Positions 8,338-31,873 of a stretch of DNA of 64,000 bases are shown piece after piece. The notes beneath the pieces are model-generated. The model made no database searches and was not told where the DNA came from. It saw only the letters and a program-made list of their open reading frames with translations. The DNA is from Sphingobium lignivorans (GTDB lineage Bacteria; Pseudomonadota; Alphaproteobacteria; Sphingomonadales; Sphingomonadaceae): the NCBI RefSeq assembly GCF_014203955.1, contig NZ_JACHKA010000001.1, forward strand, positions 806,001 to 870,000. Reading direction: 5' to 3'. Made by a program: the position numbers and the translations under genes. How positions within the stretch are numbered: the first letter of the stretch is position 1; each line of letters starts with the position of its first letter.

Positions 8338-9668
8338 GCATGGGGCAGGGCCTGCGTCTGCGCGGCAGCCTGCAATTTCGCCTGATCGTCGGTTCGGCGG
8401 TGGGGGTGGTGCTGGCGGTCCTGCTGGCCGGGCTCTTCATCGGCAATCTCTACCGGATCCACACCACCGAGCGCTTCCAGAGCGAACTGGACCATCATTT
8501 GAGCGAGCTGATCGCGATGACCCGGGTGGACGCGGCCGGGATGCCGAGGATCCCCCAGCCGCTCTCCGATCCGCAGTTCAATGCGCGGCATTCGGGGCTC
8601 TACTGGCAAGTGGATGGCGGCGAGGGGCGCATTGCGCGCTCCGTCTCGCTCGGTGCGGATCGCCTTGCGGTGCATAGCGATGACAGCGCGTGGGAAACGG
8701 GCCGGGCGGGCGACCAGATGCTGCTCCAGCGCAGTGCGCGCGTGACCCTGGACGGACATGAGGTCGTCGCCACGATCGCCTCGGCGCAGGAGTTGCTGGA
8801 AGAGCAGATCAGCCATTTCTGGAGCGATCTCGCCTGGTCCATGTCCGCGGTCGGCCTGCTGCTGCTCGCTGGCGCCATCGCGCTGGTCCGCTTCGGCCTG
8901 GCGCCCGTGCGGCGGCTTGGCGAGGAAGTCGACCGCCTGCGGCATGGCGAGGTGGCGCGGCTCGACCCGGACGTGCCGACGGAATTCGCGCCGCTCGTCG
9001 AGCGCCTCAATGCCCTGCTTGCCGCGCAGGCGCAGCTCATCAGCCGCGCTCGCACACAGTCCGGCAATCTCGCGCACAATCTGCGCACCCCGCTGGCGCT
9101 GATCATGGACGAGGCCGAGCAGTTGCGCCTCGCCGGCCATGTCGAGACGGCGGACTTCCTGCTGGGGCGCAGCGCGCTGATGCAGCGCCAGATCGACTAT
9201 CACCTGACGCGCGCGGCCGCCGGCGGCACGCGCGGCGCCGGCACGCTCACGGAAGTCGCGCCCCTGCTGGACCAGATCATCACGGCCATGAAGCGCCTGC
9301 ACGCGGGCCGCGACATCGCCTTCGAGGTCGACCTGCCGCCCGGCCTGCGGCTCCCCTGCGATCGCGGCGACCTGGCGGAAATTCTTTCCAACCTCATCGA
9401 CAATGCCTGCAAATGGTGCCGCCACCGCGTCATCATCACCGGGGCGCCCGGGGGCATCGAGGTCCGCGACGACGGCAAGGGCATCGCGGCGGCCAATCTT
9501 CAGGCGGTGCTCATCCCCGGCACCCGGCTCGATCCCGAGACGCCGGGCACGGGCCTGGGACTGGCCGCGACGGCCGATCTCCTGAAATTCTCCGGAGGCG
9601 AGCTGACGCTCGGCGCGGCGAGCGAAGGCGGATTGTCCGCCAGAGTGTCCTTCGCGGAAGAGCGCTGA
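8334..9668 (+). CDS. Sensor histidine kinase of the metal efflux locus
   Basis: A 444-residue membrane kinase partner of the preceding response regulator. It has TM1 at about residues 17-38, a periplasmic sensor of about 125 residues, TM2 at about 168-188, a HAMP segment, and a kinase core. The phosphorylated His248 lies in a PhoQ-like box (NLAHNLRTPLAL). The N box (NLIDNA, 353-358), G1 (DDGKGI) and G2 (GTGLGLA) are intact. I chose ATG 8334 because it forms an ATGA overlap with the regulator. The sensor contains several His residues (H43, H54, H55, H86) that could bind metal, but this is speculation. Confidence 0.92.
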   Translation: MSMGQGLRLRGSLQFRLIVGSAVGVVLAVLLAGLFIGNLYRIHTTERFQSELDHHLSELIAMTRVDAAGMPRIPQPLSDPQFNARHSGLYWQVDGGEGRIARSVSLGADRLAVHSDDSAWETGRAGDQMLLQRSARVTLDGHEVVATIASAQELLEEQISHFWSDLAWSMSAVGLLLLAGAIALVRFGLAPVRRLGEEVDRLRHGEVARLDPDVPTEFAPLVERLNALLAAQAQLISRARTQSGNLAHNLRTPLALIMDEAEQLRLAGHVETADFLLGRSALMQRQIDYHLTRAAAGGTRGAGTLTEVAPLLDQIITAMKRLHAGRDIAFEVDLPPGLRLPCDRGDLAEILSNLIDNACKWCRHRVIITGAPGGIEVRDDGKGIAAANLQAVLIPGTRLDPETPGTGLGLAATADLLKFSGGELTLGAASEGGLSARVSFAEER

Positions 9669-9722
9669 GAGAGTCCTGGCGCGGCGGCCCTCCGGGTGCT
9701 CTCGCGCCTCGGGGGGGGCGGA

Positions 9723-10211
9723 TCAATCGGGCAGGGGCCGATCGATCCGGCCGCTGTCGAGGAGCGGGGCCGCGTCCATGCCGGCCGCATCGAGCAGCAT
9801 GGCAAGGCGCTCGGTCGCGGCGAGCAGCATCCCCTGCTCCCATGTCGGCAGGGACGCGAACCGCTGGGTGAAGCTCGTCTGCAGCGGATCGGCCACTTCC
9901 ACCAGCGCCGCCCGGCCCGCCGGCGTCACGTCCAGCAGGAACTGCCGCTTGTCCCTGTCGCTGCGGCGGCGCTGAACGAAGTCGAGGGCAACCAGCCGGT
10001 CGACAAGGGCCGTGATCGTCGCCTGGCTGAACTGAAGCGCATGCGCCACCGCACTCGGGTTGGTCTGGCCGCGCGATTCGATTTCACGCAGCACAAGCCA
10101 TTGCGAGGGCGTGAGGCCCGTCGCCAGCGCCAGCTCCCGGTTTCCGATTTCCGTGGTGCGCAGCACACGACGCAAGGCGCGCAGCGTGAGCGTTGCAAGA
10201 TCCGTATCCAA
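9723..10211 (-). CDS. ectR: MarR-family regulator, probable ectoine repressor EctR
   Basis: A 162-residue MarR-type winged-helix protein: N-terminal dimerisation helices, recognition helix region around SAVAHALQFSQATITALVDRL, a beta-wing with RRRSDRDKRQFLLDVTPAG, and C-terminal dimerisation helices. It is transcribed divergently from ectA. MarR-type EctR proteins repress ect operons in several halotolerant bacteria and usually occupy exactly this position. The symbol is given on family plus position; the operator has not been shown. The HK and ectR genes converge with only 54 bases between them. Confidence 0.82.
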   Translation of the reverse strand: MDTDLATLTLRALRRVLRTTEIGNRELALATGLTPSQWLVLREIESRGQTNPSAVAHALQFSQATITALVDRLVALDFVQRRRSDRDKRQFLLDVTPAGRAALVEVADPLQTSFTQRFASLPTWEQGMLLAATERLAMLLDAAGMDAAPLLDSGRIDRPLPD

Positions 10212-10407
10212 GCGACCTTCCTTATTGCGATGCCTGCCAGACTAGGTCGGCAGAGCCGCCCGCGGCAAGCCTTGACGCTGTCGTCTCCGGCATGCCGCTC
10301 CTGGGGGGCTACGGAATGGTCCCGAGGAAGAAATAAAATTGCTTCATTAAACGAATGATTTTTGGGAGCTATTCCGGCTTTCGAAGGTTCTCAGGGTCCG
10401 AGATGGG

Positions 10408-10437
10408 TTGAAAATGGAGCATATACAGATATATAAA
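10408..10437 (+). promoter_or_regulatory. Candidate ect operon promoter with overlapping pseudo-palindrome
   Basis: TTGAAA at 10408-10413 is followed, after 16-18 bases, by an AT-rich -10 region (TATATA at 10430 or TATAAA at 10432). An imperfect palindrome, ATATAC-AG-ATATAT (10421-10434), overlaps the -10 box, which is where a MarR-type repressor such as EctR would bind. The predicted leader before ectA is about 65 bases. The motif stands out against the GC-rich background. It is inferred from sequence only. Confidence 0.5.
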
Positions 10438-10504
10438 GCAGCAACAGTTTGAAGCGGCGTGGACCGCCAGCAGAAAATAATTCGGGAGATAAATCATTAT
10501 CGAC

Positions 10505-11095
10505 ATGCAACCTGATGAGGCCGCGTCGCGGCCGCAGACGGCTGTGCACGGCGATCCCCGGGGTGGGGCAAGGGGCAAGGGCGAGATCGATCTGCGCCTT
10601 CCCCGAAGCACCGACGGACCTGCGATCACCGGTCTCATCGCGGCCTGTCCGCCGCTCGACCGGAATTCCGCCTACTGTAATCTTGTGCAGTGCACGCACT
10701 TTGCCGACAGCTGCGTCGTTGCCGAGCGCGACGGCGACATCGTCGGCTGGGTATCCGGGCACCGTCCGCCATCCGATCCCGCCAGCTTCTTCGTCTGGCA
10801 GGTGGCGGTGGGCGCGCAGGCCCGGGGTCTCGGCCTGGCCGGCCGCATGATCGAGGCCTTGCTCGATCGCCCCCAGGCGGCGGGCGTCACCAGCCTCATC
10901 ACCACCGTCACTGCCGACAACCGCGCCTCATGGGCGCTGTTCGAAAGCCTTTCCCGCCGATGGAGCGCGCCACTCGAGAAGAGCGTGCTGTTCGATCGCG
11001 ACATTCATTTCGCCGGTGCGCACGCCACTGAATGGCAGGCGCGCATTGGCCCCCTGCCGCAGCGAGAGCGGCCGCAAACCCGCCAGGAGCTTTGA
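10505..11095 (+). CDS. ectA: L-2,4-diaminobutyrate N-gamma-acetyltransferase EctA
   Basis: A 196-residue GNAT-fold enzyme that acetylates L-2,4-diaminobutyrate with acetyl-CoA, the second step of ectoine synthesis. The EctA signature is clear: LDRNSAYCNLVQCTHFADSCVV split over about 52-72, then GWVSGHRPP, then FVWQVAV and the acetyl-CoA-binding stretch around ARGLGLAGRM. About 28 N-terminal residues precede the conserved domain. The start is uncertain: ATG 10505 lacks a close ribosome site (GGGAGA is 17 bases away). It is followed after 4 bases by ectB. Confidence 0.93.
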   Translation: MQPDEAASRPQTAVHGDPRGGARGKGEIDLRLPRSTDGPAITGLIAACPPLDRNSAYCNLVQCTHFADSCVVAERDGDIVGWVSGHRPPSDPASFFVWQVAVGAQARGLGLAGRMIEALLDRPQAAGVTSLITTVTADNRASWALFESLSRRWSAPLEKSVLFDRDIHFAGAHATEWQARIGPLPQRERPQTRQEL

Positions 11096-20510: not shown

Positions 20511-20522
20511 GCAATCGATTGT
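20511..20522. promoter_or_regulatory. LacI-type operator 1, upstream of the hydrolase pair
   Basis: GCAATCGATTGT contains a perfect 10-bp palindrome CAATCGATTG. It is one base from the perfect 12-bp site at 27547-27558 and lies 60 bases before the first hydrolase start. The central C-G step flanked by mirrored AT bases is the usual shape of a LacI-family operator. Confidence 0.65.
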
Positions 20523-20581
20523 AGACAAGAGCGCGTCTCCATGGAAAGCGGGGAACGGATCGGAAAGCCAAGAGGGCGGAC

Positions 20582-21598
20582 ATGACGGGAGCGGATTTGG
20601 ACGGGCCGGGTATCGACCGCAGGCGAGTCATGGCGGGCTCGCTTGCCGCGCTGGCCAGCATAGTGGCACTCGCGGAGCCGGCCCGGGCTGCTCCTGCCTC
20701 CGCGAGGCCGAATCCCGCTCGTCCGATTCCGGCGCAATGGAATGCCGCGCCGACCATGCAGCTTTGGCCGGATGGTCCGCCCACAGGCGGCTTCGCTCCC
20801 ATTCCGCTGCCGATACCCGAGGCACCGCCGGTCTTCCTTCACAATGTCGCCGAGCCTTATCTGAAAGTGTTCCGGCCGGCGCGTTCGAATGGCCGCGCGG
20901 TTCTGGCCATGCCGGGCGGCGCCTATATCTTCGTCTCGATTGACAATGAGGGTGCGGAACTTGCCCAAGCCCTGACGGCGCGCGGTTATACCGTGTTCGT
21001 GCTGGTTTATCGTCTGCCTGGCGAGGGCTGGGCGGGTCGCGCCGACGTGCCGTTGCAGGATGCCCAGCGCGCCATGCGGCTGATCCGCGCCAGCGCCCGG
21101 GACCATGACTATGATCCGGCCCGGATTGCGGCGATCGGCTTCTCCGCCGGCGGGCATCTAGCCGCTTCGCTCGCCACCGATTTCGCGGAGCCATTGTTTG
21201 CACCGCGCGATGCGCTGGACCGGCTCGATGCCCGCCCGTTCGTGACCGGCCTCATCTATCCGGTCATCAGCATGAGCGCGCCGATCACGCATGCCGATTC
21301 GGCGCTGCGGCTGCTGGGGCCAAAGCCCGGCGACGCGCTGGTCGCCCGCCGCTCGCCCGCCGCGCATGTCGGCCCGGATACGCCGCCCACCTTCATCATG
21401 CATGCGCTCGATGATCCGGCCGTGCCCCCGGAAAACAGCTTCGAGATGCTGCAGGCCCTGCGCGTGGCGCAGCGGCCTGTCGAGGCGCATTTCTTCGAGG
21501 AAGGCGGCCATGGTTTCGGTCTCGGCGATCCGGCCTTGCCGGCGCATGGCTGGCTGGACCTGTGGACGGCTTTTGTGGACCGGCATGCGGCCGCCTGA
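20582..21598 (+). CDS. Exported alpha/beta hydrolase 1 (BD-FAE/acetyl-esterase-like)
   Basis: A 338-residue alpha/beta hydrolase. A twin-arginine-like signal (DRRRVMAGSLAALA, residues 12-25) and an AxA site near residue 36 predict export. The oxyanion segment MPGGAYIF, nucleophile Ser188 in GFSAGGH, Asp277/278 and His310 form a complete catalytic set. Enzymes with this pattern (xylan-esterase-like) remove acetyl or other acyl groups from sugars. It is the first gene of a two-hydrolase operon preceded by LacI-type operator 1, which places it in the sugar locus regulon. Substrate is inferred. Confidence 0.87.
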   Translation: MTGADLDGPGIDRRRVMAGSLAALASIVALAEPARAAPASARPNPARPIPAQWNAAPTMQLWPDGPPTGGFAPIPLPIPEAPPVFLHNVAEPYLKVFRPARSNGRAVLAMPGGAYIFVSIDNEGAELAQALTARGYTVFVLVYRLPGEGWAGRADVPLQDAQRAMRLIRASARDHDYDPARIAAIGFSAGGHLAASLATDFAEPLFAPRDALDRLDARPFVTGLIYPVISMSAPITHADSALRLLGPKPGDALVARRSPAAHVGPDTPPTFIMHALDDPAVPPENSFEMLQALRVAQRPVEAHFFEEGGHGFGLGDPALPAHGWLDLWTAFVDRHAAA

Positions 21599-21626
21599 GC
21601 GAGCCGGAATTGGGAGTGCGAGTGAG

Positions 21627-22676
21627 ATGAGAAACATGAACAGGCGCGATCTCGGCCGGCTGGGCGCGGCCGCTTTGGTCACCATGATGGCCGGACGCAT
21701 GGGCCAGGCAGCCCAATTGCCCTCCGACGATCCGCTCGCCTATCTCGACCCCGAACTTTTGCCGGCGGCGCGAGAAGTCATTGCACAGAATGAGGGGCTG
21801 ACGTGGACGAAGGAGGCGCTCGCGCGGATCCGGGCCGGGACGCCGCCAGCGCCGCCGCACCTGCCCGACGTGCCGGTACAGCAGCTTCGCCTGCCCGTGG
21901 GGCCGGGCCAGCCCGACGTGCCCGTCTTCATCATCAATGCCCGGCCGGGGACGCGCCGCCCGGGCATCCTGCACATGCATGGCGGCGGCTACATCCTCGG
22001 CAGCGCCGGGCTCGAAGTGGCCTATGAGCAGGCGCTGGCGCGCGAGCTGGATTGCGTGATCGTCACGGTGGATTACCGGCTGGCGCCGGAAACGACCTAT
22101 CTCGGCTCGGTCGAGGACAATTACGCCGCGCTGCGATGGATGTACCATGAGGCCGCGAGGCTGGGGCTGGACCCTGCGCGGATCGTCGCCATGGGCGAGA
22201 GCGCCGGCGGTGGTCATGCGGCGCGCCTTGCCATCACCGCGCGTGACCGGGGCGAGGTGCCGCTGGCAGGGCAGATGCTCATCTATCCGATGCTGGACGA
22301 TCGCACGGGGAGCAGCGTCCACCTGCCGCCCTTCATTGGCGCGTTCGGCTGGACCGGGCAGGCCAATCGCTTCGGCTGGACGAGTTTCCTCGGCATGGAG
22401 CCGGGCGGACCGGACGTGCCGGCAGCCGGCGTGCCCGCACGAGTCACCGATCTGTCCGACCTGCCGCCTGCGTTCGTCGCGGTGGGCGGCGTCGACCTCT
22501 TCGTGCGGGAGGACATCGACTATGCACGTCGCCTGACGGAGGCCGGCGTGCCGACCGACCTGCTGGTCGTGCCCGGTGCGTTCCATGCCTTCGATCGCGT
22601 GGCGCCGGAGGCCAAGGTCTCGCAGCGCTTCACGGCCTGGAAGATGGACGCCCTGCGCCGGGCTTTCGGCGCCTGA
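21627..22676 (+). CDS. Exported alpha/beta hydrolase 2 (HSL family)
   Basis: A 349-residue esterase of the hormone-sensitive-lipase family with the oxyanion motif HGGG (118-121), nucleophile Ser192 in GESAGGG, and likely Asp290 and His320. The N-terminus MRNMNRRDLGRLGAAALVTMMA is a Tat-like signal. It starts 28 bases after the first hydrolase and is probably co-transcribed from the operator-controlled promoter. Family members hydrolyse short acyl esters, including acylated small molecules. The following ROK kinase gene converges with it. Confidence 0.88.
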   Translation: MRNMNRRDLGRLGAAALVTMMAGRMGQAAQLPSDDPLAYLDPELLPAAREVIAQNEGLTWTKEALARIRAGTPPAPPHLPDVPVQQLRLPVGPGQPDVPVFIINARPGTRRPGILHMHGGGYILGSAGLEVAYEQALARELDCVIVTVDYRLAPETTYLGSVEDNYAALRWMYHEAARLGLDPARIVAMGESAGGGHAARLAITARDRGEVPLAGQMLIYPMLDDRTGSSVHLPPFIGAFGWTGQANRFGWTSFLGMEPGGPDVPAAGVPARVTDLSDLPPAFVAVGGVDLFVREDIDYARRLTEAGVPTDLLVVPGAFHAFDRVAPEAKVSQRFTAWKMDALRRAFGA

Positions 22677-22709
22677 GCGGTGGGTCGGCCGGGGCGTGGC
22701 TTGGCTCGA

Positions 22710-23639
22710 TTATCCCGCAGCCGAGGGCGCCCCGCGCTCATCTAAGCAGGCTGCCTGCGCGAGCGCGATGCAGCCCAGGGGGCCGGCCTGATCGCCCAGA
22801 TGCGCGGGGCCGATCATGGCCGTGGCCGACCGGGTATCGAACGCCGGCAGATAGCCCTGCAGCAGATCGAGCGCCCGCGCCCGGATCCGCGGGAACAGAA
22901 AGCCCCGGCGGACCGCGACGCCGCCGCCGAACAGGATCGCCTGCGCTGCGGTGGTCAACAGCAGCATGGCGGAAATCTCGGCCAGATCGGAGGCGACATG
23001 CTCCCAGAGCGCATCGTCGTCGTCCACCGTCTCCATCGGACGGCCGAAGCGGGCGGCCAGAGCAGGGCCGGATACGAGGCCTTCCACGCAATCGCCATGG
23101 AAAGGGCAGGTGCCCGCGAAACGATCCCCCGCTGCGCGTCGCGCGCGAACATGGCCGATCTCGGGATGCAGGGCGCCATGGACCGGCCGCCCGCCAATCA
23201 GCAGGCCGCCACCCACGCCGGTGCCGATGGTGATGTAGCAGAGGCTGTCGAGCTCGGCGCCGCCGCCCCAGCGATATTCCGCCAGCGCCGCGCCATTGAC
23301 GTCGGTGTCGATCGCCCATGGGCAATCGATGCCCCGCGTCAGCCCGCCAGCGACATCGGCATGTGTCCACCCATGCTTGGGGGTCGGGAGCATATGGCCG
23401 AAATCCGGTGCTGTCCGGTCAAGGCGGATCGGGCCGAAGGACGCGATGCCGATGCCATCCAGCGGCGCCTCGGCATGCCAGGCGATCAGTTGGCCATGGG
23501 CGCGGGCCAGCGTTTCGGCGGGCGTGGTCGTCGGGATGGTCTCGCGCGCGATGATCGCGTCGCCATGGGCAAGCACGGCGATCGTCTTGGTGCCGCCGAG
23601 TTCGACACCGCCAAAACGGCCTCCGTCACGCCGGGTCAT
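22710..23639 (-). CDS. ROK-family fructokinase
   Basis: A 309-residue sugar kinase of the ROK family: ATP-binding GGVELGGTK near the N-terminus, a GTGVGGG loop, and the zinc/His motif region EIGHVR...CPFHGDCVEGLVSGPA that is typical of ROK fructokinases (ScrK/Mak type). It phosphorylates fructose released from sucrose or fructans to fructose-6-phosphate in the cytoplasm. Its ATG 23639 overlaps the stop of the GH68 gene (ATGA), which supports fructose as substrate. It is the last gene of the minus-strand operon. Confidence 0.9.
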   Translation of the reverse strand: MTRRDGGRFGGVELGGTKTIAVLAHGDAIIARETIPTTTPAETLARAHGQLIAWHAEAPLDGIGIASFGPIRLDRTAPDFGHMLPTPKHGWTHADVAGGLTRGIDCPWAIDTDVNGAALAEYRWGGGAELDSLCYITIGTGVGGGLLIGGRPVHGALHPEIGHVRARRAAGDRFAGTCPFHGDCVEGLVSGPALAARFGRPMETVDDDDALWEHVASDLAEISAMLLLTTAAQAILFGGGVAVRRGFLFPRIRARALDLLQGYLPAFDTRSATAMIGPAHLGDQAGPLGCIALAQAACLDERGAPSAAG

Positions 23640-24775
23640 GGCGCTGCCCGCAGGCGGGCCCGCTCGCCATCGAGTGCGAGCGCGAGGAAGGGCGCGAAGG
23701 TGCCCCCGAAGCGCCGGGTGTCGGCATGATCGGCGCCATGCCCCCAATCATCCACGAAGCTGGTGACGCGCAGATCGGGCAGCACGAGCCAGCTATAGGC
23801 CTGTCGCGGCGCTTCCGGGGGATTGGCAATCACGAGGCCGGTGCCGTTGAGGGGCCGCCACTCGCCCTCCAGCCGGTCCGAGACCATGCCGTAGAGGCCG
23901 GTGGGGCCGACCGGCCCGGCCGGATCGAACACATGCGACTGGGTGGACCAGAAGAGATAATAGAGGCCGGCATGGTGGATGACATGCGGGCGTTCAAGCT
24001 CATTGTTAAGGCCGTCCGCGCTGATCACCGGGGGCACGATTCGCCACGGGTCATCGGGGCCTCCCGCGCCGCGCGCCGCGCCGATCACGCCGTTGAAAGC
24101 GGATGCCGAGCCAGCCCGCGAACCGGTGAAGAAAAGCCAGGCCTCGCCCGTCGCGGGATCCCGAAAGAAGCCGGGGTCGCGGAATGCCTTGATGGTGCCG
24201 ATGCCGCCGCCGCCGCTCAGCGGGTCCATGTAGAGGCGCTCGTCCAGCGCCACGCTTTCGCGCAGGTCACGCCAGTCGGTCAGACGTGGAGCGTCGGCAT
24301 TCTCGGCGAGCCTTGCCCTTGCCTGGAACAGGCGTTGCCCGAAGGTCGGTTGCGCCTCGCCGCGCGTGCCGGCGGCCGTGAAATAGAGCGTCAGTCCGCC
24401 ACCATCGGCATCCATGATCGCCGAGCCGGACCATTCCCGGCTGCCCGGCGCAAAGCCTTCCGGCATGGCCGGTCCGAGGCTGCGCCAGCCGGATGCCTGC
24501 CGCAGGAGAAGATGGATCCGCGCATGAGCATGCCTGTCGTCGGGATTTTCGAACCAGGGCGCGCCCAGCGCCATCCACAAGCTGGCGCCATCCGCGAAGC
24601 GATGGATGGACCCATCGTCGTTCTGGACGGGCCAGGCATCCCACAAGCCAAGCTCCGGCAGCGCGTCCGCGAGATCGGCTGCTCCGATCAGGGGCGCGGC
24701 AAAAGACGCGAGGGGGCCAATAGCCGCGACATGATCGGCGCTCCAGAGAGTGCCGGCCGTTTGACCGGAAGGCAT
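23636..24775 (-). CDS. GH68 family enzyme (levansucrase/beta-fructofuranosidase)
   Basis: About 379 residues with the five-bladed propeller signatures of glycoside hydrolase family 68. Nucleophile Asp46 is in LWDAWP, the transition-state stabiliser Asp200 in FRDP, and acid/base Glu261 in NELERPH; EWSGSA is also conserved. GH68 enzymes split sucrose and either build levan or release fructose. No signal peptide is visible, as in Zymomonas GH68 enzymes, so location is uncertain. The start is not firm: ATG 24775 is the first plausible codon, without a clear ribosome site. An upstream ATG at 24952 lies beyond the operator and is unlikely. Translationally coupled to the fructokinase. Confidence 0.92.
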   Translation of the reverse strand: MPSGQTAGTLWSADHVAAIGPLASFAAPLIGAADLADALPELGLWDAWPVQNDDGSIHRFADGASLWMALGAPWFENPDDRHAHARIHLLLRQASGWRSLGPAMPEGFAPGSREWSGSAIMDADGGGLTLYFTAAGTRGEAQPTFGQRLFQARARLAENADAPRLTDWRDLRESVALDERLYMDPLSGGGGIGTIKAFRDPGFFRDPATGEAWLFFTGSRAGSASAFNGVIGAARGAGGPDDPWRIVPPVISADGLNNELERPHVIHHAGLYYLFWSTQSHVFDPAGPVGPTGLYGMVSDRLEGEWRPLNGTGLVIANPPEAPRQAYSWLVLPDLRVTSFVDDWGHGADHADTRRFGGTFAPFLALALDGERARLRAAP

Positions 24776-24933
24776 GGCGGACGTGTCAGGCAAGATCGAT
24801 ACCCCTGTCGGAGAGCGAGGAAAGGCGGGCCGGCAAGGGCAGGGCGGCGCCGGAAGACGGCGTGCCGCTTCCGCAAGCCTTTCGGCATTCCGGGCTCCCC
24901 TGCATCGATCCGAGGGGTTGATACACGGACAGC

Positions 24934-24945
24934 GAAATCGATTGC
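24934..24945. promoter_or_regulatory. LacI-type operator 2, upstream of the GH68-fructokinase operon
   Basis: GAAATCGATTGC differs by one base from the perfect palindromic site at 27547-27558. It lies between the LacI regulator gene and the GH68 gene, upstream of the latter on the minus strand. Confidence 0.6.
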
Positions 24946-25009
24946 AAAGCAAATTTTGCGCGCATGTAGTGGGTCTTGCGGATGCAATGCCGGACGTCGC
25001 CGTGAGCGC

Positions 25010-26030
25010 TCAGCTCGTCCCGCGGACGACCAGTTCGGGGTTGAGGACGATCGAGCCGGTCTGCTTGCCGTCGATGCGGCGGAACAGGCAATCGATCATC
25101 TGCCCCGCGCCGGTCTGGATATCCTGCCGGATGGTGGTGAGCGGCGGGACGGTGCTGCGGGCAATCGGCAGATCGTCGAAGCCGACGACCCGCACGTCGC
25201 CGGGCACCGACGTGCCGCGCGACGCGAGGATCTGGATGGCGGTCTGCGCGATCATGTCGGAGGCTGCGAAAATGCCGTCCGGCATGCGCTCGACGCTGTC
25301 CAGATAAGCCGCGATATCGCCGGCGCTCAATTCGCTGGCGAGGTGGATGGTGACTTCCGCCAGCTCGACCGGCGCGCCGGCCCGCGCGCACCGCTGCCTT
25401 GGCGCCCTCGAGGCGCTGCGCGATCTCAATCGCCTGCGTGTTGCCCAGAAAGACGATGTTACGGCTGCCCCTCGCGATGAGATGCTCCGTCGCCATGCGG
25501 CCGCCCAGGAAATTGTCCGTCCCGACGGAGCAATGCACCTGGCCCCGCGTGAAGGCGCCCCAGGCGACCATCGGCAGATAAGTGCGGGCAGCTGCATCGA
25601 GCACGGCCGACTGGTCGGACTGCCCGATGATGATGAAGCCATCGACCCGCGCCTTGGCGATCATGGTTTCCAGCCAGTTCGGCTTGTCCGGGATCACGCG
25701 GGACAGAACCAGGTCGAAATCGCGCTCGGTCAGTTCGTCGGCGAGGCAACCGATCATCGTCATGAAGAACGGGTCGGAGATATGCTGCGCGCGCTCGTGG
25801 CCGAGCGGGATCACGACACCGATCGCGCCGCTGCGCCGGGTCCGCAGATTGCGCGCCAGCGCGCTGGGCTGGAAACCGTGCTGCTGCGCCAGCTTGCGGA
25901 TGCGTTCGGCCGTCTCGTTGCTGACGACGGTCTTGGCCGCCAGCGCCCGCGACACGGTGGCGGCGGATACGCCGGCCAGTTCCGCCAGATCGTAGATCGT
26001 CCGGATCTGTTTTGGCTTCACCGCTGTCAC
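25010..26030 (-). pseudogene. LacI-family regulator of the sugar locus, broken by a +1 frameshift
   Basis: The start ATG 26030 gives a LacI helix-turn-helix (IYDLAELAGVSAATVSRALA, residues 12-31), hinge helix and the first sugar-binding lobe up to EGAKAAVRA. The second lobe (GAPVELAEVTIHL to the C-terminus ELVVRGTS, stop at 25010) is in another frame. Removing one base of the CCC at 25381-25383 (a G on the coding strand) gives KAAVRAAGAPVEL and a 339-residue protein, the normal LacI length. If the shift is real the regulator would lose ligand binding and dimerisation. Located directly after the MFS permease gene; four LacI-type operators occur around it. Confidence 0.9.
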
Positions 26031-26076
26031 GCCCTTTCCTGTTCCGGCAACCTGAATAGAAGATCGCGTTTCGATT

Positions 26077-27330
26077 TCAGCACGGATTTTCCGGCGCGCG
26101 CGAATAATCCGCCTGGTTGCGTGCCAGCAGCCGGGCGGCGAATGGCGCGCGCCGCCAGTTCCACAGGCAGAGCCCGGTCAGCACCGTGGCGAACAGCGCC
26201 CCCAGAAGGATGCTGTAGCCGCTGTCGCCCAGCCAGTCGCCCAGCAGGGCCATGGCCAGCGGCGCAAGCACGGCGCTCACGCAGGTGTAGAAGAGCAGCA
26301 GTCCGGCGATGGAGCCGTGCCGGCTCTTCTCGTAGCAACTGATGCCGGTGGAATTGATGGTGGGATAGAGCACGGACATGAACAGGCCTGTCGCGGGCAG
26401 GGCGAAGACGGCGATCTCGGGGCCGCCCGCCAGCGCCATCCAGAACAGCACGGTCATGCCGAAGGTGCAGACAAGCAGGACGACGCTCCAGTCGAGGCGG
26501 GACAGCAGCCAGGCACCGAGAAACCGGCCCAGCGCGCGCAGCACGAAGAAGACCGAGACGGCATAGAGGGCAAGCCACGGGAAGGGCCCGGAATAGCCTG
26601 CCAGATAGGTGGGCACCCAGACATAGATGGCTGCTTCCGCGCCGACATAGAGCATGAGGGCGATGCTGAAGAACCAGGCCGTCGGCTCCCCCATCATGCG
26701 CATGGCATCGCGCGGGTCCGCCGGCTGTGCCTGCTCGCGAACCGGCGCCGGAAAGCGCGCCAGCGCAATGCCGATCAGCAGTGCCGCGCAGAGCATCGCG
26801 GCGATCAGGTAAATCCATTTCCAGCTGGTCTGCTGCTGGAGGAGGAAGGCGACCAGCGCCGGGCCGACGATCGCGCCGACTCCGAAAAAGCCCTCGACCA
26901 GATTCATCGTCGCGGCATGCTCGCGGGTGGAGCTTGTCAGATCGCCGATCAGTGCGAGCGCGCCCGATTTGAAAATGCCGATGCCAAGGCCCGAAAAGAA
27001 CAGCAAGACGACGAAAAACGCCATGCTGTGCCCCGCTGCGAACAGGCCCGAGCCCACGCCGAACAGCATCAGCCCCAGCAGGATGGTCCACTTGCGCCCG
27101 ATCCGGTCGGCGAGGAAACCCAGCGATATGGCGGCAACGCCGATGCCCGACATGGTGGCATATTGGAACGAGCCGCCGGCGGTCAGGCCGAGATCGAACT
27201 CGCGAATCACTTCCGGGATCACCGTGCCGACCGCATCGGTCGTCATCGCGAACATCGCGAACATGAGGAAGATGAGGAGCTTGAGGAGATGGTTGGCCGG
27301 CCGATCGGCCCGACTGACTGCATTCGGCAT
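26077..27330 (-). CDS. MFS sugar permease of the GH68 locus
   Basis: A 417-residue, 12-helix major facilitator transporter. The loop FLADRIGRKWTILLG after helix 2 is the MFS motif A; helices 7-12 follow a short cytoplasmic loop with ADPRDAMRM. I chose ATG 27330 because the hydrophobic domain begins about 16 residues later; upstream in-frame codons encode a non-conserved Arg-rich stretch. It is the first gene of the minus-strand sugar operon, next to lacI and facing the TonB receptor. It probably carries the released sugar across the inner membrane. Substrate (sucrose, fructose or an ester) is inferred from context. Confidence 0.88.
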   Translation of the reverse strand: MPNAVSRADRPANHLLKLLIFLMFAMFAMTTDAVGTVIPEVIREFDLGLTAGGSFQYATMSGIGVAAISLGFLADRIGRKWTILLGLMLFGVGSGLFAAGHSMAFFVVLLFFSGLGIGIFKSGALALIGDLTSSTREHAATMNLVEGFFGVGAIVGPALVAFLLQQQTSWKWIYLIAAMLCAALLIGIALARFPAPVREQAQPADPRDAMRMMGEPTAWFFSIALMLYVGAEAAIYVWVPTYLAGYSGPFPWLALYAVSVFFVLRALGRFLGAWLLSRLDWSVVLLVCTFGMTVLFWMALAGGPEIAVFALPATGLFMSVLYPTINSTGISCYEKSRHGSIAGLLLFYTCVSAVLAPLAMALLGDWLGDSGYSILLGALFATVLTGLCLWNWRRAPFAARLLARNQADYSRAPENPC

Positions 27331-27414
27331 GAATCTCCCCTTCGTTCTTTCTATCTGGCCCTGTCCGCGCAGGGCGTGGCCGCGGGATGAATGTCGGTGC
27401 ATGGGTTCCGGAAC

Positions 27415-27426
27415 GCAATCGGTTGT
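27415..27426. promoter_or_regulatory. LacI-type operator 3, upstream of the MFS permease
   Basis: GCAATCGGTTGT matches the perfect site at 27547-27558 at ten of twelve positions. It lies 85 bases upstream of the MFS start on the minus strand and 120 bases from operator 4, a spacing that would permit looping between the two. Confidence 0.5.
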
Positions 27427-27546
27427 GATTGGCCGATCCCATGCGCCGGCTGGCGCCTGTGACATTTTTGCAAGCGAAGGTCAAAGCATAGCACTTCTGT
27501 TGATTCTACACATTGTGCTGCAGCAAGATCTTCGCTAGACGGCGAC

Positions 27547-27558
27547 GCAATCGATTGC
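27547..27558. promoter_or_regulatory. LacI-type operator 4, perfect palindrome upstream of the TonB receptor
   Basis: GCAATCGATTGC is a perfect 12-bp palindrome and the best copy of the motif in the window. It lies 212 bases before the TTG start of the TonB receptor in the divergent promoter region. Confidence 0.7.
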
Positions 27559-27769
27559 ATAACATCGATGGAATGACAGTGCGAGAGGGTGGGCCGGAAT
27601 CATGGCACTTTTCCTCCGCCAGGCATCGAGAGCAGCTCGCAAACGCATGTGGGCGAACTCTCTTTCGTGCATCCATCGCACCCGGTTGAAAGCGGCCAGA
27701 GCCGTCGACCGGGTTTTCGGTCCGTGCATCGAGGGTCCGGAAGGTGACCGAGTCTTTGGGAGTTGGCAG

Positions 27770-30127
27770 TTGAAACGCAGTAATCTCTTCATCGCATGCA
27801 GCATCCTCGCGCTTGCGACCCCGGCATTCGCGCAGGATAACAGCGCGCCCGACGAGCCCTATGATGGCGGCGAGATCATCGTGACCGCGCAGAAGAGCGC
27901 GGAAAGCCTCACCAAGGCGCCGATCGCCGTGTCGGTCGTGCAGCAGGATGCGCTGGACCGTCAGGGTCTTTCGAGCGCCGACGCGCTGGTGACCACCGCG
28001 CCGAACCTGCAGCTCAGCCAGAACGGTTTCTCGATCCGCGGCATCGGCAGCAACAACAGCTTCAGCGGCTATTCGACGGTCGCGACGCAGATCGACGGCA
28101 TCTACGATCCCTCCGCGCAGGTGCTGCAGCTCGGCCTCTTCGACATCGGGGCGGTGGAAGTGCTGCGCGGCCCGCAGGGCACGGTCTACGGCCGCAACGC
28201 CACGGCCGGCGTGGTCAACATCAACACGGCCGACCCGGGCTTCCGCTTCGCCGCGGAAGGCGACATCCAGTATGCCAGCCGCAACCAGATGCGCGTGCGC
28301 GCCGCAGTCGACCTGCCTGTCACCGACACGCTGGCTATCCGCGTCGCGGGCTTCCGCCTCGCGGATGACGGGCTCGATCCGTATCTGGGCGCCGGCGAGG
28401 CATGGGGCAAGACTGACCTCTCGGCTGTGCGCGTCACGGCCCTCTGGGAGCCCACCTCGACGGTCAGCTGGCGGGTTTCGCTGAACTATGGCGAGAACCA
28501 GGGCACCATCCCGCTCAGCTATATGCGCAGCTACAATTACTATCCCGACGCCGACATGGCCTATACGGGCACGGACATCCGCAACGGGCTCTTCGGGCCG
28601 GGCGTCACGGTCTATGACAAGCAGTACAATCCCGGCGTCGAGGATGTCACCGACAACCGGATCAACACCAAATATTATGCCGCCCGCTCGCGCCTGAGCT
28701 GGGATGTGACGCCCAATCTCACCGCCACCTGGCTGGCGGGCTACTCGATGCTCAAGGACAATGGCGTCACGGCTTCCACCGGCGTGTTCGAGCAGCGCGC
28801 CGTCGATGCCAAGACCGAGACCTGGTCGCACGAGCTCGATCTCAATTACGAGATCGGCCGTTTCTCCATGGTCGCAGGCGCCTACATCTATCAGGACAAG
28901 AAGCCGTCCGGCAGCGCCCTGATCCATGCCGGCAACACGGCGCCCTATCCGTTCAACAGCGTCTTCAACATGTTCGGCGCCAAGGTCGTTGGCGAGGGCT
29001 TCAACATCTCCACGATCGATGCCGTGGATGTGGTGAACTACAATTCCAACGTCGGCAGCAAGTCACAGGCGCTGTTCGGTCAGGCCAAATATGAGCTGCT
29101 CGACGGCCTGAACATCACGGGCGGCGTGCGCGCCACGTGGGATCAGGTGCTGAGCCGCAACACGCAGCTGGTCTGCGCCGGCGGCACGGTGACGCTCGAG
29201 ACGATGAACCCGACCACATGCCCGGTCGGCGATCCCATCGCCTTCACCGACGACACCGATCGCCCCGAGGCGAAGTACAGCAAGGTCAACTGGAGAGCCG
29301 GGCTCGATTATCAAATCACGCCGCAGCTCATGGCCTATGGCACGGTGAGCACCGGCTATCGCAGCGGTGGCCTTCAGTCGAGTTCCAACCCGGTCGCTTT
29401 CCGGTCCTACGAGCCCGAGACGGTGACCAATTACGAGGCCGGCATCCGCGCCGACCTCTTCGATCGCCGCCTGTTCCTGGGCCTCACGGCCTATCAGATG
29501 GATTACAACAACCTGCAGGTGGCCTCGATCATCGTCGATCCCATCCAGGGGCCGATCCCGGTTTCGACCAACGCGGCCAAGGCGCGCATCCGTGGCGTCG
29601 AGCTGGAAACGCGCTTCTCGCCGACGCGCAACGACCACTTCTCCGGCTATGTGTCGTTCCTCGACACCAATTTCCTGTCCTTCCCCAATGGCCAGGACAA
29701 TCTCTATTCGGCCGACACGATGTACAACATCTTCGGCCCGATCCTCGGCTTCTCGTCGATCCCGTCCCAGACGGCGGACTTCTCGGGGAACGAGCTGCCC
29801 AATGCGCCGCGCTGGAGCGGACGGGTGAGCTATGCGCATGATTTCTACATCGGTGACGGCAAGCTGACGCCGGCTGTGGACTTCTACGTGCAGTCGCGGA
29901 CCTTCGCGGACATTGGCAACTATGCGCAGAGCCGCAACGGGTCCTACACCAAGACCGACCTCAACCTCACTTATGTGTTCCCGGGCGAGAATCTGACGCT
30001 GACCGCCTTCGTGAACAATCTCGAGGATGAGCGGATCGCCCAGAATGTGACGACGGTCTGGAGCTCCACGGTGGTGAACTACAGCGCGCCGCGCACGATC
30101 GGCGGGCGTGTCGGCTTCCGGTTCTGA
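27770..30127 (+). CDS. TonB-dependent receptor of the sugar locus
   Basis: A 785-residue outer-membrane receptor: signal peptide (KRSNLFIACSILALATPAFA, residues 2-21), TonB box EIIVTAQK, plug domain with SIRGIGSNN and EVLRGPQGTVYGRNATAGVVNI, and a 22-strand barrel ending in VGFRF. I chose TTG 27770 because it gives a standard signal peptide and has GGGAG at 27758-27762; the upstream ATG 27602 would bury the signal peptide 57 residues in. It is divergent from the permease and carries operator 4 upstream, so it is the likely outer-membrane importer for the locus substrate. TonB uptake suggests a ligand too large for porins. Confidence 0.92.
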   Translation: MKRSNLFIACSILALATPAFAQDNSAPDEPYDGGEIIVTAQKSAESLTKAPIAVSVVQQDALDRQGLSSADALVTTAPNLQLSQNGFSIRGIGSNNSFSGYSTVATQIDGIYDPSAQVLQLGLFDIGAVEVLRGPQGTVYGRNATAGVVNINTADPGFRFAAEGDIQYASRNQMRVRAAVDLPVTDTLAIRVAGFRLADDGLDPYLGAGEAWGKTDLSAVRVTALWEPTSTVSWRVSLNYGENQGTIPLSYMRSYNYYPDADMAYTGTDIRNGLFGPGVTVYDKQYNPGVEDVTDNRINTKYYAARSRLSWDVTPNLTATWLAGYSMLKDNGVTASTGVFEQRAVDAKTETWSHELDLNYEIGRFSMVAGAYIYQDKKPSGSALIHAGNTAPYPFNSVFNMFGAKVVGEGFNISTIDAVDVVNYNSNVGSKSQALFGQAKYELLDGLNITGGVRATWDQVLSRNTQLVCAGGTVTLETMNPTTCPVGDPIAFTDDTDRPEAKYSKVNWRAGLDYQITPQLMAYGTVSTGYRSGGLQSSSNPVAFRSYEPETVTNYEAGIRADLFDRRLFLGLTAYQMDYNNLQVASIIVDPIQGPIPVSTNAAKARIRGVELETRFSPTRNDHFSGYVSFLDTNFLSFPNGQDNLYSADTMYNIFGPILGFSSIPSQTADFSGNELPNAPRWSGRVSYAHDFYIGDGKLTPAVDFYVQSRTFADIGNYAQSRNGSYTKTDLNLTYVFPGENLTLTAFVNNLEDERIAQNVTTVWSSTVVNYSAPRTIGGRVGFRF

Positions 30128-30262
30128 GCCGATAAAAAATCAACGGGGCGGGCGGGTCTCTCGCTCGCCCCGGTTGCTTCACGGCGCGAAGCCGTCTGTA
30201 AAGGGGACAATCTCCGGCGACAGACCGGATGAAGCCGATCGCTGCCGGCGAGAGTTGTGGAG

Positions 30263-31873
30263 ATGAAGATCATGCGCACCCGACGACTGAAGTCTGCCGC
30301 CCTGCTGATGGCATCCGCTGCTGCCCTTTGCGCGATGCCCGCTCAGGCGAAGGATACCGCCGCGCCGCCCGCCGCCGCCCGGTGCGAAGCGCTGGCCGGG
30401 CAGTCCTTCGGCCCGGACGTCAAGATCCTCTCGGCGCGCCACGTCGCCGCAACGCCGCCCAGCGACCAGCTGAATGCCCATGGCTGGCGCCTCTCCTCCG
30501 CGCTCCCGGGACACTGCCGGGTCGATGGCATCATCAATGAGCGGCAGGGCGCCGGCGGCAAGACCTATGGCATCCGCTACGCGATCGCGATGCCGGACGA
30601 CTGGCAGGGCCGCTTCCTCCTGCAGGGCGGTGGCGGACTGAATGGTTCGGTGCTGGAGCCGACGGGCCCGGTCGCGGCCAATGGCGTGCCAGCGCTGGCG
30701 CGCGGCTTTGCCGTCATCAGCCATGACAGCGGCCATGAAGGCGCGGTGTTCGACAACAGTTTCATGGCCGACCAGCGGGCCGCGCTGGATTTTGCCGAGA
30801 CTTCGGTCCGCACGGCCACGCTGCTGGGCAAGAAGGTGACCACCGCTTATTATGGCCGGGACATCGCGCACAGCTATATGGCGGGCTGCTCGACCGGCGG
30901 CCGCGAGGCCATGCTGGCTTCCCAGCGCTATCCCGAGCTGTTCGACGGCATCATTGCCGGTGCCCCGGCCATGCGCACGGGGGATTCCAATCTCGCCATC
31001 GACTATTCGCATGTCCTGTTTAATCAGGTCGCCTCGAAGGGTGCGGACGGCAAGCCGGACGTCTCCGCCCTGTTCAGCGATGCGGTGCGCCAGACCATCC
31101 TCCACGGGCTGCTGGCCCAGTGCGATGGGCTCGACGGCCTCAAGGACGGCATGATCGAGAATGTCGCGCAATGCCGCTTCGATCCCGCGAAGCTGGTCTG
31201 CAAGCCGGGCCAGAGCAAGGACTGCATCAGCGCGGGTCTGGCGGGCGCGCTCAAGGTGGGGTTCGCGGGGCCGCGCGACAAGGCTGGCTATCCCCTCTAC
31301 ACGGCGATGCCTTTCGATACCGGCATTGTCGTGAAGCCGATGGGTTATCTGCCTACCGGTGCCCCCGGCCCGTTCGGCCCGCCCAGTACGGATACCGCCA
31401 TTGATCTCGATGCGCGCATCCAGGCCATCCGCAACGATCCCGTGCAGCGCCTGACCGACACGAACTACTGGACCAATCTCGGAACATTCCTCGATCGCGG
31501 CGGGAAGATGCTCTTCTTCCACGGCGTTTCGGACTTCTGGTTCTCGGCGCAGGCGACCTGGGACTATTATGAGCGCGCGGCCGAGACGAACGGCAAGGCA
31601 TTCACGAATGCCACGCGCTTCTACATGGTGCCGGGCATGCTGCATTGTCAGGGCGGCAATGCCTTCGACCAGTTCGACATGCTTGGCGCGCTGGTCGACT
31701 GGGTGGAAGAGGGCAAGGCGCCCGAGGCCATTGTCGCCGCGCGGAAGGACCAGCCGGAGGAAACCCGGCCGCTCTGTCCCTATCCCGGCCATGCCCGCTA
31801 TGTGGGCGGCGACGCGAAGAAGGCGAGCGCCTTTGCCTGCACGCCGGCACAGGACGGCCCGGCGGGCGATTGA
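30263..31873 (+). CDS. Tannase/feruloyl esterase family protein
   Basis: A 536-residue secreted esterase of the tannase/feruloyl-esterase family, which cleaves galloyl or hydroxycinnamoyl esters. A signal peptide ends near AMPAQA. The CS-D-HC catalytic pattern is complete: Cys209-Ser210 in GCSTGG, Asp424 in GVSDFW, and His461-Cys462 in MLHCQGG, in which the Cys pair would form the disulfide next to the triad. ATG 30263 and ATG 30272 are both possible starts. It lies 135 bases after the TonB receptor on the same strand and may be co-transcribed. This adds an ester-cleaving step to the sugar locus. Confidence 0.9.
   Translation: MKIMRTRRLKSAALLMASAAALCAMPAQAKDTAAPPAAARCEALAGQSFGPDVKILSARHVAATPPSDQLNAHGWRLSSALPGHCRVDGIINERQGAGGKTYGIRYAIAMPDDWQGRFLLQGGGGLNGSVLEPTGPVAANGVPALARGFAVISHDSGHEGAVFDNSFMADQRAALDFAETSVRTATLLGKKVTTAYYGRDIAHSYMAGCSTGGREAMLASQRYPELFDGIIAGAPAMRTGDSNLAIDYSHVLFNQVASKGADGKPDVSALFSDAVRQTILHGLLAQCDGLDGLKDGMIENVAQCRFDPAKLVCKPGQSKDCISAGLAGALKVGFAGPRDKAGYPLYTAMPFDTGIVVKPMGYLPTGAPGPFGPPSTDTAIDLDARIQAIRNDPVQRLTDTNYWTNLGTFLDRGGKMLFFHGVSDFWFSAQATWDYYERAAETNGKAFTNATRFYMVPGMLHCQGGNAFDQFDMLGALVDWVEEGKAPEAIVAARKDQPEETRPLCPYPGHARYVGGDAKKASAFACTPAQDGPAGD

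Follow-up and report, generated by a model that had tools for sequence, protein, structure and literature searches.

Why should a locus that looks built for sucrose carry genes for exported esterases? The question is raised by positions 20511 to 31873 of the window, the 64,000-nucleotide stretch of Sphingobium lignivorans DNA analysed here (part of a single-contig 4.2-Mb genome), where a GH68 enzyme, a ROK fructokinase, a LacI-family regulator, an MFS permease and a TonB-dependent receptor are encoded beside two exported hydrolases and a tannase-family enzyme. The initial annotation proposed that the natural substrate could be an acylated or phenylpropanoid sucrose ester that loses its ester groups in the periplasm before the sugar is split. 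Our analysis leads to a similar answer: this is probably a carbohydrate-utilisation locus for sucrose that has been rebuilt for the acylated form, which would be deacylated in the periplasm and cleaved in the cytoplasm. The genomic half of the earlier proposal held up, through co-conservation of the esterases with GH68, shuffled gene order, a common operator in several genera and a locus (L172) with a different sucrose-splitting enzyme. All the genes that had been named are present, with Pfam or NCBIfam matches, and so are four operator-like sites, described as near-identical operators said to precede the first four transcription units, each site lying in the gap before a unit:

20511-20522, operator-like palindrome GCAATCGATTGT, before EstA-EstB.
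20582-21598, plus strand, EstA, an exported alpha/beta hydrolase with an N-terminus like those of the twin-arginine translocation (Tat) pathway; PaeX or acetyl-xylan-esterase type, under the NCBIfam cut-offs.
21636-22676, plus strand, EstB, an exported (Tat-like) hormone-sensitive-lipase (HSL)-type esterase.
22710-23639, minus strand, ROK fructokinase, ScrK-like, under the NCBIfam cut-off.
23636-24793, minus strand, GH68 enzyme (Pfam match); translation may instead begin with the ATG at 24775.
24934-24945, operator-like site GAAATCGATTGC, before GH68-ROK.
25010-26030, minus strand, LacI-family regulator, with a reading frame that is interrupted near 25383 in the assembly.
26077-27333, minus strand, MFS permease, unlike the GPH-type sucrose symporter.
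27415-27426, operator-like site GCAATCGGTTGT, before MFS-LacI.
27547-27558, exact operator palindrome GCAATCGATTGC, before the TonB receptor gene, divergent to the MFS gene.
27602-30127, plus strand, TonB-dependent receptor; its true start is perhaps near 27771.
30257-31873, plus strand, exported tannase-family enzyme (PF07519; TAN as a family, Tan as a protein), 316 bits against a cut-off of 29.8.

Co-conservation of the esterases with GH68 had been suggested as a check on the proposal, and it was observed. We surveyed 298 genomes of the family, 67 of which contain GH68 at E 1e-10, and gathered 140 GH68 loci, 60 from survey genomes and 80 from named contigs, two sets that overlap (e.g., L032 is the same locus as L092). 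A usable GH68 gene was present in 136 of these, and removal of 13 near-copies left 123 distinct GH68 loci. Nine acyl-hydrolase families were counted (EstA, EstB, TAN, C8, C9, GDSL11, GDSL12, carboxylesterase B and CocE-like). Thirty-four of the 123 loci contain two to seven acyl-hydrolase genes and are called esterase loci; the remaining 89, with none or one (one in eight of them), are called plain loci. Among 19 control regions (380 kb in all, hand-placed at round coordinates), three contained one acyl-hydrolase gene each. EstB occurred in 30 of the 34 esterase loci, TAN in 23, EstA in 20, C8 in 19 and C9 in 15; GDSL11 (14 loci), GDSL12 (8), carboxylesterase B (4) and CocE-like enzymes (2) were rarer. 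When L172 is included, 303 of the 326 genes in the 35 esterase loci score at least 60 bits against the recurring-family models; genes were called with a home-made caller, which trimmed some starts. The same genes, differently ordered, appear across the 140 loci in Sphingomonas, Altererythrobacter, Croceibacterium, Altericroceibacterium, Aurantiacibacter and others, and the esterase, GH68, MFS and LacI genes recur jointly despite the shuffled order. Esterases were not recognised among the 22 commonest gene clusters of the 89 plain loci, which were mostly judged by eye.

The genome survey gave the same picture. The window-type MFS permease was found at E 1e-80 in 10 of the 298 genomes, all of them GH68-positive; the 10 best EstB matches lie in these same 10 genomes, each no more than about 7.5 kb from GH68, and the seven best EstA matches also fall among them. 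EstB matches at E 1e-60 occur in 54 of the 298 genomes. On a quick tree of GH68, in which the protein of Sphingobium sp. SYK-6 (L092) stood in for that of the window, the esterase label required three changes against a shuffled mean of 30.1, and 0 of 500 shuffles were as low. SYK-6 (NC_015976.1) is the nearest relative found for the window strain, with a GH68 that is 95% identical over its full length. GH68 was missing at E 1e-10 from four other searched genomes with the same genus label as the window strain, so the window locus looks accessory.

The two kinds of locus also differ in their permease. The window-type MFS permease (at least 200 bits) was detected in 26 of the 34 esterase loci and 0 of the 89 plain loci, and a GPH-type sucrose symporter (TIGR01301-like, under its cut-off) in 72 of the 89 plain loci and 0 of the 34 esterase loci; eight esterase and 17 plain loci had neither. 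By genome, the 67 GH68-positive members of the survey comprised 49 with the symporter, 10 with the MFS permease, none with both and eight with neither (Fisher p 1.8e-7, for genomes that are not independent). The GPH symporter was not found at E 1e-60 in any of the 10 MFS-bearing genomes, and the same search was positive in 57 others of the 298. Novosphingobium sediminicola DSM 27057 (L133 and L152) and Novosphingobium sp. SG751A (L135 and L164) each contain an esterase locus as well as a plain one, and the presence of both types inside one strain argues for different jobs.

One genome, G134, in which no GH68 match was found, contains a locus (L172) with a tannase-family gene, two receptors, ROK, two EstB, EstA, C9, a PF00756 esterase, a GPH symporter, LacI and the operator. 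A 589-amino-acid enzyme encoded there matches amylosucrase and Xanthomonas sucrose-hydrolase structures (E about 1e-130). With an amylosucrase-type enzyme in place of GH68, the esterases seem tied to the splitting of sucrose and not to GH68 itself; this arrangement comes from a single genome. EstB and EstA homologues away from GH68 (L173 to L182) had no GH68, esterase battery or symporter labelled around them. L177 is the exception, in a genome (G063) that has the genus label of G134 and likewise no GH68 match: at 8458-10510 an operator precedes EstB, which is followed by a ROK gene, a partial echo of the L172-type arrangement.

Chance as the source of the operator was rejected on placement and conservation, not on the count in the window (8 matches at two mismatches or fewer, where 6.1 were expected, which is not significant); a single place in the 4.2-Mb genome carries the exact 12-mer. 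In the 34 esterase loci, 90 of 93 exact sites of the core CAATCGATTG are intergenic, against a non-coding share of about 11% in these loci by the home-made gene caller, and the 19 control regions contained no exact core site. With up to one mismatch allowed, 26 of 29 loci (20 of the 23 that are distinct) had the core in the 500 bases upstream of GH68, 20 of 29 (15 of 23) had it there for EstA or EstB, and 20 of 29 (15 of 23) had it at both places. Exact sites stood within 450 bases of called starts for GH68 (19 of 34), EstA (9 of 23), EstB (10 of 33), C8 (13 of 19), GDSL11 (5 of 14), MFS (9 of 28), LacI (9 of 30) and TonB receptors (26 of 52) in the 34 loci; they were rare before TAN (2 of 24), C9 (1 of 15) and ROK (0 of 27), mostly genes that follow others, and before unassigned genes (7 of 187). 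At least one exact core was present in 26 of the 34 esterase loci, and in 24 of the 25 in the main clade. The core also occurs in 48 of the 89 plain loci, with 98 of 107 sites intergenic, and for this reason the regulator is probably an ordinary sucrose-type LacI. By its family match and the predicted sites, LacI is a candidate for control of these units.

The core could also be followed outside the locus. The 10 MFS-bearing genomes contain 60 core sites, 27 of them off-locus, and the reversed pattern gave two. Of 19 off-locus sites examined, six form triplets in G069 and G193, between a divergent C8 gene and a TonB receptor gene, and these C8 copies are the only ones found in the two genomes; the operator thus predicts the same enzyme outside the locus. 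One further site precedes a receptor gene in G102. The other 12 comprised seven inside called genes and five without locus-family neighbours, except for a receptor near one of them (G115).

C8 belongs to a group of further recurring families with C9 (a second HSL-type esterase), two GDSL types, carboxylesterase B, CocE-like proteins (Peptidase_S15/PepX_C) and DUF3237. It is about 448 residues long (e.g., L098:12013-13353), and its representative has no Pfam or NCBIfam match. An AlphaFold model of moderate confidence (mean predicted local distance difference test score, pLDDT, 72, with 204 of 447 residues below 70) had neutral ceramidases as its four best PDB matches, including 2zws (E 2.6e-19, template-modelling score 0.68 by query length, 17% identity). 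A His, a Glu and a Tyr are invariant in 16 sequences and sit at what we take to be the positions of the ceramidase zinc ligands. C8 was found in nine of the 298 genomes, seven with an esterase locus and two with distant copies. DUF3237 is represented by 19 genes in 15 of the 34 esterase loci (L040, L093, L097, L127, L133 and others) and may have to do with the acyl or aromatic moiety. Near one genome's esterase locus lies a gene (L038:3148-4623) whose product presumably resembles carotenoid/lignostilbene oxygenases.

The GFSAGG motif, an Asp and a His of EstA are invariant in a 19-sequence alignment, as are SAGGG, Asp and His of EstB among 21 sequences, which suggests a catalytic Ser/Asp/His triad in each. 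A structure model of EstA (pLDDT 81.5) had 6a6o and 7dwc as its closest solved folds, and the nearest solved relatives of the tannase-family enzyme are MHETase and feruloyl esterase B. The GH68 protein, aligned to the levansucrase 7bj4, keeps the WD, RDP and ER motifs, with the Asp nucleophile, the RDP Asp and the acid/base Glu all present, residue roles that we assume from SacB. Sucrose splitting by this enzyme is a family-level prediction from the Pfam match and these motifs, and the enzyme is presumed cytoplasmic because no signal peptide is evident in the frame read. The tannase gene starts 130 bases after the receptor gene ends, and the window shows no separate operator for it. Behind it comes a DUF885 gene (PF05960; 32002-33840) that adjoins the locus and that, among the 140 loci, was seen only in those of SYK-6 (L032 and L092).

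Put together, the pathway would run as follows. The TonB receptor would carry sucrose esters, probably plant-derived, across the outer membrane, and the exported EstA, EstB and tannase-family enzyme would take off the acyl groups in the periplasm, a task in which ceramidase-fold, GDSL, carboxylesterase and CocE-like enzymes may share elsewhere. EstA, to judge from its nearest folds, and EstB would suit acetyl or short acyl groups and Tan hydroxycinnamoyl or galloyl groups. Sucrose or partly acylated sucrose would then enter through the MFS permease and be cleaved by GH68 in the cytoplasm, with the ROK kinase phosphorylating fructose, and a LacI repressor bound to GCAATCGATTGC and released by sucrose or its product would switch the units jointly. 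The genomes themselves show the gene content, the conserved operator, the co-conservation, the permease exchange and one replacement of an enzyme; we infer the substrate, the direction of flow, the effector and the enzyme activities, and with them the chemical half of the earlier proposal. Its phenylpropanoid version draws on the match of Tan to the tannase/feruloyl-esterase/MHETase family and on the presence of that family in 23 of the 34 esterase loci. Plants widely produce acylated sucroses as surface and defence compounds. Phenylpropanoid sucrose esters with cinnamoyl, coumaroyl, feruloyl, caffeoyl or sinapoyl groups are described from several plant families (PMC7830900).

The plain loci offer a parallel. 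They resemble the esterase loci in having GH68, mostly ROK, LacI, a TonB receptor and, in 48 of 89, the core CAATCGATTG; they differ in their GPH symporter, in an alpha-galactosidase in 27 of 89 and in having at most one esterase gene. By Pfam matches of one representative each, GH36 alpha-galactosidase occurs in 27 plain loci, GalT in 13 and GalK in 12, and none of the three occurs in the 34 esterase loci. Raffinose is a galactosyl-sucrose, and plain loci with GH36, GalT or GalK (L170, L157, L171) resemble raffinose-family utilisation loci; many share the operator core, including 17 of the 27 with GH36. By analogy, both kinds look like sucrose modules with swappable decoration-stripping tools, alpha-galactosidase for galactosyl and esterases for acyl groups. 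A tryptophan-halogenase family gene (PF04820; e.g., L167:14430-15941) lies near GH68 in 28 of the 89 plain loci and 0 of the 34 esterase loci.

Several observations weigh against a locus rebuilt for acylated sucrose. The acyl-hydrolase models that divide the 34 loci from the 89 were derived from esterase loci, which biases them toward matches there. Not one esterase family is common to all 34 loci, and 11 GH68 loci of the window's own tree clade (seven from Sphingobium, three from Sphingopyxis, one from an unclassified proteobacterium) have no esterase or one. None of the three L127-type esterase loci of Sphingobium has the exact core, and in the third clade two of six loci have it. No GH68 residue change passed our thresholds in all three esterase clades, so that a convergent active-site change was dropped as a candidate; differences seen in the main clade look phylogenetic. 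L172 joins the esterases to an ordinary symporter, which makes the permease exchange not obligatory. As a correction to the initial annotation, the LacI gene of the window is frameshifted: around 25383 it has one base more than its SYK-6 counterpart, whose frame is open. A genuine mutation or a fault in the assembly could account for this, and the former could make the regulon constitutive.

The operator is also identical to that of plain sucrose loci, and the locus may simply respond to sucrose. A LacI regulon that senses plant sucrose might then induce general esterases for other plant esters (acetyl-xylan, pectin, cutin, hydroxycinnamoyl) and not for sucrose esters. The resemblance of EstA to the pectin acetylesterase PaeX (under the cut-off) and to acetyl-xylan esterases, that of Tan to feruloyl esterases and MHETase, and the core in 48 of 89 plain loci would all fit such a role. 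We nevertheless consider it unlikely, since the permease is exchanged in the esterase loci, the esterases accompany an amylosucrase-type enzyme in one genome, and no xylanase, pectinase or other polysaccharide enzyme was seen among the 23 unassigned genes of the 35 loci, which were judged mostly by eye from sequence starts, with family searches for L172_03, L172_07 and L172_08 only. Less likely again is another acylated fructosyl or glucosyl sugar, such as an esterified oligofructan or an acylated microbial glycolipid, in place of plant sucrose esters. GH68 is understood to include fructan-active enzymes, the MFS permease is unlike the plain-locus symporter and a ceramidase-fold protein occurs in 19 of the 34 esterase loci; the replacement of GH68 in L172 speaks against such a sugar, as described amylosucrases are understood to act on sucrose. 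An ordinary sucrose locus with esterases adjacent by chance or common inheritance is very improbable. Paralogues of the EstA type turn up in many genomes (93 of 298 at E 1e-40), and the clustering of the esterase label on the GH68 tree means that the loci are not independent; however, gene content is kept while order shuffles, operators stand before esterase genes, the tree needs only three label changes, and the off-locus ceramidase-fold gene keeps its operator in two genomes.

A sucrose locus rebuilt for acylated sucrose therefore remains our preferred explanation. We are more tentative about a wider reading, which is plausible at somewhat under even chances: sphingomonads would have a dedicated, modular catabolism of plant acyl-sucroses, with variable sets of exported acyl hydrolases controlled by a sucrose LacI, a permease that replaces the symporter and perhaps imports partly acylated sucrose, and GH68 and amylosucrase as interchangeable enzymes for the splitting step. 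Its substrates would be trichome acylsucroses or hydroxycinnamoyl or acetyl sucrose esters. In one study, the minimal medium in which SYK-6 was incubated contained 10 mM sucrose plus glutamate, proline and methionine (PMC6874591), which is compatible with use of sucrose without showing it, and gene deletions have already been made in that strain (PMC6874591). The recurring locus and operator supply specific SYK-6 genes to test and candidate esterases for acylated sugars.

In the open-licence literature searched, we found no description of bacterial use of acylsugars, acylsucroses or sucrose esters, or of sphingomonad sucrose loci with esterases, which is weak evidence of absence; a bacterial route for eating acylated sucroses would be new to that literature. 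The LacI-family sucrose regulons ScrR, CscR and SuxR (PMC4052901) are alike in placing sucrose uptake and splitting under LacI control, and the main text of that paper has no word beginning with "sphingo" or "esterase". The nearest described system is the sux carbohydrate-utilisation locus with TonB-dependent transporter (CUT locus) of Xanthomonas campestris, which comprises the TonB receptor suxA, the amylosucrase suxB, the permease suxC and the LacI-type repressor suxR (PMC1790865). The esterase loci likewise combine a TonB receptor, an inner-membrane permease, a predicted sucrose-splitting enzyme and a LacI-family regulator in one locus, and the window pairs its receptor with an inner-membrane transporter in the same way. 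A sucrose permease of the GPH type was found in 0 of the 34 esterase loci, with the symporter of plain sphingomonad loci, in place of SuxC, as the reference. Where sux has amylosucrase, the esterase loci have GH68 and ROK (L172 excepted); their MFS permease is a different one, and their predicted regulon extends to several exported acyl hydrolases.

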